A model generated the notes under the pieces. It was not told the DNA's origin. It did not search any database and saw only the letters and a list, made by a program, of their open reading frames with translations. A program made the position numbers and the translations under genes. This document shows positions 246-36,370 of a stretch of 64,000 nt of DNA, piece after piece. The stretch is from NCBI GenBank assembly GCA_018223085.1, contig JAAEZB010000002.1:1-64000 (forward strand), in the 5' to 3' direction. Origin of the DNA: Paracoccaceae bacterium. GTDB taxonomy: Bacteria; Pseudomonadota; Alphaproteobacteria; Rhodobacterales; Rhodobacteraceae. How positions within the stretch are numbered: the first letter of the stretch is position 1; each line of letters opens with the position of its first letter.

Positions 246-1448
246 TCATCCCCTCTCAAAAAAACCATAGTGCGGTTGGGAGTGCCCGAAGGACACGGTA
301 TCCGGCCCATACCGCCGGTTGATGTTATCGACCACCTTGCCAAGTTTCTCACGACTTGTCGGGGACGCCTGCGGTAGCGGTAGGAAGAGATCCGGCATTC
401 GGTCCTCAAGCCTCTGAATGCGTCCCAACTGCACACCGACCGACAAGTAGTTTCTGCATTCAGTGCGGTCATAGAACCGCCGCCACAGGGCCTTGTGCAG
501 TGCCAGAAAGTGAAGGGTGTCTTGGCTGGGAAAGGTTGTGATGCCATCCGACCACCATCCCTTGGGGCTGCAAGATACCTGAATAGAAAAGTAGCGCGCC
601 AGATAGCCATCTCGGCGTAGGCGTGCCGTCGCCTTTTCCACCAACCAACGAGATACAAAATACGCATTTGGTAAGGAACGGTTTTCCGGGGCCAAAACCT
701 TTGAGTTACCATACCCGTTCCGCCTTGTGGGCATGAGCGGAATATCTTCACCTTGCAGAGCGCGCACGAACCGCTCTCCCTCGACCGAATGCCAGATCAT
801 GCGCGCATGTCGCGGGTCTAGGCGGTAAAGGTCTGGTATCGTTTGCACCCCCGCAGCCACCAGCTTGCGGTGAATTCCCTTGGCAATCCCCGGCAGCTTG
901 TCCAGTGGCATATCAGCCAGCCTATCCGGCATATTGTCGGGTGACAGCCATGATAGCCCATCCGGTTTTTCCAACTTCCCGGCAATTTTTGCGAGAAGAT
1001 GATTGGGGCCAAGCCCGACTGAAGCACCGATGAATGGTCCGGCTTCTTGCTTAATAAGGGCTTTGATTGCCGCCGCTTTCGCAACAGCCCTGTCAAGCTC
1101 GTGATCCACAGCGGATAGTCGGATTTGGAATTCATCGACCGACCGAATGCGCTCAACTTCCGCGATCCGATCAATCGCCTTAGCGATCTTTTGGTTCATG
1201 CGCACATAGACCCGGTGACGTGCGCCCACGAGGGCAATATTCGGACAGAGCTTCTTTGCCTCATATATCCGCGTCCCAACACCAATACCCAAAGCTTTCG
1301 CATCATAGGAGGCCGCCACAATGGCTCCGGCGTCATTGTCGACAGCCGTGATCCCAACAGGCCGCCCACGCAGTTCTGGAGTCAACTGCTGCTCCACAGA
1401 GGCATAGAAACTATCCATGTCGATATAGAGAGTTCGAAATTTCACCAT
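246..1448 (-). CDS. Y-family DNA polymerase (DinB/UmuC-like; often mislabelled 'type VI secretion protein ImpB')
   Basis: 400 aa; YIDMDSFYASVEQ and SVDEF catalytic motifs, helix-hairpin-helix-like PLDKLPGIAKGIHRKL. Confidence 0.93.
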   Translation of the reverse strand: MVKFRTLYIDMDSFYASVEQQLTPELRGRPVGITAVDNDAGAIVAASYDAKALGIGVGTRIYEAKKLCPNIALVGARHRVYVRMNQKIAKAIDRIAEVERIRSVDEFQIRLSAVDHELDRAVAKAAAIKALIKQEAGPFIGASVGLGPNHLLAKIAGKLEKPDGLSWLSPDNMPDRLADMPLDKLPGIAKGIHRKLVAAGVQTIPDLYRLDPRHARMIWHSVEGERFVRALQGEDIPLMPTRRNGYGNSKVLAPENRSLPNAYFVSRWLVEKATARLRRDGYLARYFSIQVSCSPKGWWSDGITTFPSQDTLHFLALHKALWRRFYDRTECRNYLSVGVQLGRIQRLEDRMPDLFLPLPQASPTSREKLGKVVDNINRRYGPDTVSFGHSQPHYGFFERG

Positions 1449-1464
1449 TTCAGAATCGCCAGAT

Positions 1465-1479
1465 GTTCACTATTTGTTC
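1465..1479. promoter_or_regulatory. LexA/SOS box (alphaproteobacterial GTTC-N7-GTTC)
   Basis: GTTCactatttGTTC exact match, located between divergent starts of the polymerase and the small ORF. Confidence 0.85.
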
Positions 1480-1483
1480 CTAT

Positions 1484-1786
1484 ATGGACATGAAAGGCAA
1501 ACTCGGCAACGTCTCGTTTGGTGGGAACTGGAGCGAAGATATCCTCATCCGTGATCAGGTGGGCGCTGTGCTTGATTTTCTGGACTGCGCAGCCCGTGAA
1601 TGTGTGGACCGCGATGTGCGAGGCAAAGAAATGGATGCCGTCCTCACGTATGTCGCCGAGAACATTGAAAAAGGGACAATGCTGGCGGCAGCACTACGCC
1701 ATGCGCTTGCACAGACAGAGCCATGGCAGCGACAGGGGGCAGCGCTTCGGGTGGTAGAGCAGATTAGGCGGATTGTTGGGGAGTGA
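1484..1786 (+). CDS. small hypothetical protein, divergent from the Y-family polymerase and sharing its SOS box
   Basis: ORF track start at 1463 lies upstream of the SOS box; MDMKGKLGN... start at 1484 is more plausible. Confidence 0.6.
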   Translation: MDMKGKLGNVSFGGNWSEDILIRDQVGAVLDFLDCAARECVDRDVRGKEMDAVLTYVAENIEKGTMLAAALRHALAQTEPWQRQGAALRVVEQIRRIVGE

Positions 1787-11166: not shown

Positions 11167-11236
11167 GTCGAACAAAAAGTTGCGCACACCACGCAATCCC
11201 CCTAGAACCATGCGGGAACCTAGAATGGAACCGGCC

Positions 11237-36298: not shown

Positions 36299-36370
36299 GG
36301 CGGCCTCATAAAGCTGGAACAAGCCCACCATACACAATCAGAACAAATGCGGAACAATTCTTTTCGCCCG

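Follow-up and report, generated by a model that had tools for sequence, protein, structure and literature searches.

A probable new type of accessory subunit for an error-prone polymerase: an uncharacterized 100-residue protein of marine bacteria

Introduction

In E. coli DNA polymerase V (UmuD'2-UmuC-RecA), an SOS-controlled small partner, UmuD', accompanies a Y-family polymerase that carries a RecA-NT motif, a concept set out elsewhere (PMC6511836) and referring to a resemblance to the N-terminal oligomerization motif of RecA. UmuD belongs to the self-cleaving S24 proteins and has a beta core; its gene lies in tandem with umuC. One study models the N-terminal arm of UmuD' in the palm/little-finger cleft of the polymerase (PMC12926913). 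In Gram-positive bacteria and prophages, YqjW/UvrX is partnered by YolD/YqjX (PF08863), an SH3-like barrel; this unrelated functional counterpart of UmuD is LexA-controlled, adjoins a Y-family polymerase and often resides on mobile elements (PMC6511836). PPB2, of the archaeal and bacterial PolB2 mutasome, is a small all-helical protein with three helices, encoded with a B-family polymerase and iRadA, and its highly conserved N-terminal arm (MGRT) was modelled as inserted near polymerase and DNA (PMC11791011). According to PMC11791011 and PMC12926913, UmuD', the YqjX/YolD variants and PPB2 are unrelated small subunits in which a conserved N-terminal arm with a variable body joins the polymerase. 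SRAP proteins (HMCES/YedK, PF02586) have also been linked to UmuC-like polymerases (PMC3765255, PMC12926913). In Acinetobacter, a genus without LexA, the small gene ddrR diverges from the SOS gene umuDAb at a common operator (PMC7273328, PMC11332147); DdrR assists UmuDAb and is described as unique to this genus (PMC11332147).

Here we describe a divergent pair formed by a Y-family polymerase gene and a gene for a protein of 100 residues. We found no paper naming this pair in the literature covered, outside which most subscription literature lies; the main text of PMC12926913 contains neither "alphaproteobacteria" nor "small protein", and its supplements could hold a prior listing.

Results and Discussion

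The pair lies near one end of the window, the stretch of 64,000 nucleotides that we analysed, which is the beginning of a contig in a 3.0-Mb MAG (145 contigs, 89% complete). The polymerase gene occupies positions 246–1448 of the minus strand (coding 249–1448, stop codon 246–248) and encodes 400 amino acids of a UmuC-like, Y-family enzyme. The small gene, on the plus strand at 1484–1786, encodes 100 amino acids comprising an N-terminal arm and a predicted four-helix body. Its start is best placed at the ATG at 1484, since homologues start 11 codons ahead of the FGG motif described below; a start at the alternative ATG at 1463, which is in frame, would lengthen the product to 107 amino acids and take the reading frame across the regulatory site. 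The gap between the polymerase start codon (1448, minus) and the ATG at 1484 measures 35 bp, and the perfect GTTC-N7-GTTC box that the first-pass annotation had placed in it was confirmed at 1465–1479 (plus strand; exact match GTTCACTATTTGTTC), where it is common to both divergent genes.

Counting the pattern alone sets the box barely above chance level. The window holds three matches to GTTC-N7-GTTC against 1.5 expected, a number that 13 of 100 shuffles reach, and the genome as a whole shows no enrichment: the pattern occurs 65 times in it, and the same pattern reversed, taken as a control, 94 times. The two further matches in the window, a total at chance level, lie at 11205–11219 and at 36341–36355, the latter immediately upstream of a minus-strand ORF that resembles isocitrate lyase. 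Such abundance is what could be said for the view that box and ORF adjoin an ordinary polymerase gene by accident. Judged by conservation, however, the box is clearly above chance. A perfect copy lies within the intergenic gap at 62 of 66 homologous loci, and when these are collapsed at 90% polymerase identity it is present in 25 of the resulting 26 clusters, the 26th having one mismatch; the gaps themselves span 35–92 bp. Homologues of the small protein at the equivalent position amount to 55 distinct proteins, and the ORF is a real gene under purifying selection: compared with its nearest relative (L013, a Pseudopelagicola MAG), its dN/dS is 0.20 (0.06 in the arm and 0.22 in the body), against 0.05 for the polymerase. 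This conservation refutes a chance origin, to which we give next to no credence.

The same genome also supplies a context for the box: five further genes have this box a short distance upstream, namely lexA, uvrA, uvrD, one that is mmcB-like and one of the radical SAM type (identities from Pfam). The pattern is that of the Caulobacter LexA consensus, GTTCN7GTTC (PMC12700426). Repression of both genes by LexA, as first proposed from the box alone, is thus strongly supported at the sequence level, by these sites in the host genome and by conservation in homologous divergons. The box ends 4 nt ahead of the small-ORF start codon, which leaves no room for a ribosome-binding site, and the transcript may be leaderless. 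Spacing is 2–5 nt in roughly half of the clusters, the window's own included, and 20–41 nt in the others. A scan of the gap with the sigma-70 consensus found no promoter-like site.

Searches for homologues of the small protein located them in 5 other members of the 249 genomes in the family, in 6 plasmid records, one Paracoccus phage and 4 viral contigs, and at 50 loci in genome_contigs, chiefly from Rhodobacterales and Sneathiella. One of the loci (L022), in a MAG labelled as Planctomycetota, is closely like those of Amylibacter and is probably mis-binned. Among the genome_contigs loci, which were found only via the small protein, 48 of 50 have an adjoining divergent polymerase, a count that takes in a few polymerases truncated at the end of a contig or interrupted by a break in the reading frame. 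The reciprocal search with the polymerase gave the same picture. Relatives about 53–61% identical carry the small ORF in genomes (L068–L070, L075, L136), on plasmids (L007–L011, L078–L081) and in a phage (L012), the exceptions being the separated polymerase pieces of genome G110 and, in Paracoccus yeei, a fragmentary polymerase (L082). The small gene was found at none of 37 loci whose polymerase is at most 43% identical, and many of these have GTTC-N7-GTTC upstream. The small gene is therefore the companion of one polymerase clade and not of LexA boxes generally. The first-pass annotation had asked whether the neighbourhood is conserved and had named homologous loci without ORF and box as evidence against a common control; among polymerases at least about 53% identical both are kept, a few decayed or rearranged loci aside.

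Inheritance follows the same line. Across the 26 clusters, the distance matrices of polymerase and small protein correlate with r = 0.84, a value that none of 2000 permutations reached. DNA similarity to the nearest relative (L013) spans positions 246–1757 at 89.9% and ends on both sides, where the neighbours are unrelated; because the two loci have only those two genes in common, polymerase and small gene move as a unit. The pair is a bare mobile cassette between unrelated flanks, carried also by mobilizable plasmids of Phaeobacter, Leisingera, Pseudosulfitobacter, Roseovarius and Paracoccus and by Paracoccus phage vB_PthS_Pthi1. On plasmid p2 of Paracoccus sp. TOH, a protelomerase-family gene lies near the divergon (L011:11120-12223), the record being circular nonetheless.

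The divergent arrangement at an operator, and the small helical protein that the model predicts, recall umuDAb-ddrR (PMC7273328, PMC11332147) and could fit a protein that controls the SOS switch itself, for example by co-repression or by modulating LexA at the common operator, much as DdrR assists UmuDAb. We consider this role distinctly unlikely. The gene tracks one polymerase clade and not LexA, polymerases at most 43% identical often bear the box without it, and no DNA-binding family was detected in the protein. Further, the host genome has an ordinary LexA, and DdrR is described as confined to a single genus (PMC11332147).

The mobility of the pair may also be read in favour of an independent SOS effector that shares only the promoter with the polymerase. 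Small SOS-induced proteins such as RecA modulators (DinI, PsiB) and division inhibitors exist, and a protein of this sort (a DinI-/PsiB-like modulator, a division inhibitor or an SOS aid to a plasmid or phage) would not be out of place on the mobilizable plasmids and the Paracoccus phage that carry the gene. One genome does hold the small gene away from the polymerase: in G110, a Roseovarius MAG, it stands beside era together with an SRAP gene whose product matches PF02586 (L031), and pieces of the polymerase (L074/L077) lie on other contigs, one beside an apparent rnc, with degenerate boxes upstream. However, an independent effector should often occur without a polymerase, and 48 of the 50 loci have one. 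The other exception (L035:3700-4060) retains the tail-coding end of an internally deleted polymerase, directly before a box region whose box has one mismatch. The small protein also lacks similarity to known families, and we regard an independent effector as unlikely. A functional partnership of the small protein with the polymerase is strongly supported. The first-pass annotation had proposed a damage-inducible partner and offered three roles for it, of which that of a polymerase regulator or partner fits best; we found nothing in favour of a clamp adaptor, the polymerase having its own clamp-type motif, or of a division inhibitor.

The polymerase itself matches the Pfam families IMS (1.6e-34) and IMS_C (2.1e-6), and its catalytic motifs IDMDSF (D10) and SVDEF (D105-E106) are intact, with catalytic positions invariant in the family. 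The structural model has an ordinary Y-family fold that matches Dpo4/DinB structures, and we predict that the protein is catalytically active. Two elements follow toward the carboxy terminus. MPDLFLPL (residues 351–358; 375–398, minus strand), in a low-confidence linker of the model, is a probable beta-clamp-binding motif, and sister polymerases have QxDLF at a comparable position. Further on, residues 365–380 (309–356, minus strand; within SREKLGKVVDNINRRYG) are predicted to form a helix whose sequence resembles the RecA-NT motif and which overlaps a DUF4113 match just under the cut-off.

The last residues set the clade apart. The tail HSQPHYGFFERG (residues 389–400; 249–284, minus strand) is specific to the polymerases with the small gene; G395, F396, F397 and G400 are invariant in 41 aligned polymerases, and the segment is predicted to be disordered (pLDDT < 50). 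Where the small gene is lacking, the polymerase has a different ending immediately behind the RecA-NT-like helix, G-x-[KR]-[IV]-[AS]-[FY]-x-[RK]-[IV]-P-x3-[ED]-F, which is shared by stand-alone alphaproteobacterial polymerases (L071–L073, L076, L083, L084, L086, L087, L137–L161) and absent from the partner clade. The tail swap was probably a single evolutionary event, so that the correlation between tail and partner counts as one data point. Some stand-alone polymerase genes are immediately followed, on their own strand, by a small hypothetical gene (L083:3721-3972, L087:3754-4020), a possible unrelated partner.

Searches with the small protein returned no significant match in Pfam, NCBIfam or PHROGs, only scattered weak ones, and no relative in PDB; no known family was recovered for the 50 members aligned (alignment A2). 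The best PDB profile matches were designed helical repeats, which we attribute to generic helices and not to relationship, and Foldseek found nothing for the model at E <= 0.001 in PDB or among viral models. AlphaFold2 predicts four helices over residues 25–99 with a pLDDT of about 90, preceded by a disordered stretch (residues 1–20, with blocks at pLDDT 41 and 56). Within this stretch lies the most conserved part of the protein, an arm at residues 8–19 (GNVSFGGNWSED; 1505–1540, plus strand) with the motif N-V-[AS]-F-G-G-x-W-S-E at residues 9–18. Mean column identity is 0.84 in the arm versus 0.45 in the body. N9, F12, G13, G14, W16, S17 and E18 are invariant in all 9 sequences gathered without a motif search, which form the unbiased set; they are invariant also in 50 of 50, in part by construction, as the genome_contigs and viral scans used FGG[NAD]WSE. 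Conserved yet predicted to be disordered, the arm has the profile of a docking peptide, and from the models we infer that the arm and the polymerase tail both resemble such peptides. Conservation of the arm would also fit RecA, LexA or the clamp as binding target. The resemblance of its N-[VI]-[AS]-F to the K-[IV]-[AS]-F in the tail of sister polymerases was considered as a copy in trans and rejected (p = 0.06–0.07 in column shuffles, not significant).

A conserved, unstructured N-terminal arm is thus what the small protein has in common with the described subunits, and its body sets it apart from each of them. Like UmuD', it would be a small partner under SOS control, and its polymerase too is of the Y family, with a predicted helix that resembles the RecA-NT motif. 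Unlike UmuD, it has no S24 or other Pfam match, its model is all-helical, without a beta core, and its gene is divergent from that of the polymerase. With YolD/YqjX it shares a LexA box, a Y-family neighbour and mobility; it differs in its four-helix body, its arm sequence and its alphaproteobacterial hosts, and no YolD appears among the Pfam families listed for the 50 members, so that profile and model both separate the two. PPB2 is likewise small and helical with a highly conserved arm, but the small protein has four long helices in the model and a Y-family partner. Part of the family sits within the reported association of UmuC-like polymerases with SRAP, since 6 of the 26 clusters have an SRAP gene 3' of the small one, and none stands beside the pair in the window; the small protein itself has no PF02586 match. 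DdrR, finally, has the same divergent position, and by its description it belongs to a different setting, acting with UmuDAb in a genus without LexA, whereas the locus reported here lies in a LexA genome and follows a polymerase clade. In the host genome we found neither UmuD nor YolD, the sole S24 protein found being LexA, and one other Y-family gene, DinB-like; at 89% completeness of the MAG, the missing UmuD and YolD are not proof of absence.

These observations are best accommodated, in our judgement and with a fair measure of confidence, by a LexA-controlled, mobile two-gene translesion mutasome whose small protein is a dedicated accessory subunit, doing the job of UmuD' or YolD as a non-relative of either. 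In the undamaged cell, LexA would bind the single box at 1465–1479 and shut both divergent promoters. Upon damage, RecA-triggered cleavage of LexA would free both genes, which would then be induced together. The products would be a predicted active polymerase, bearing the clamp-type motif, the RecA-NT-like helix and the special C-terminal tail, and a small protein that would physically bind it. The flexible arm may dock on the polymerase, for which the likeliest site is the palm/little-finger cleft that the models of UmuD' and YqjX suggest, and the four-helix body may regulate or stabilize the assembly of the polymerase with RecA and perhaps the clamp, with a presumed effect on mutagenesis. 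More tentatively, and at somewhat short of an even chance, we propose that the pair represents a class of mutasome not described before: a mobile polymerase swapped the usual alphaproteobacterial tail for a partner-specific one and a four-helix protein unrelated to UmuD, YolD or ImuB-C provides its arm as a docking peptide in trans.

Conclusion

If the accessory-subunit reading is right, translesion polymerases have acquired small subunits with an arm on at least one further, independent occasion, this time with a different fold again, and plasmids and phages are spreading a compact cassette for mutagenesis that damage would induce. The pair offers a clear test of the idea that what matters for control of the polymerase is a short docking arm, whatever fold bears it, and it would give a name to an unannotated protein family now labelled "hypothetical". 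Because it travels with its polymerase on chromosomes, plasmids and phages alike, this uncharacterized 100-residue protein of marine bacteria probably assists the error-prone enzyme as a subunit of a new kind.
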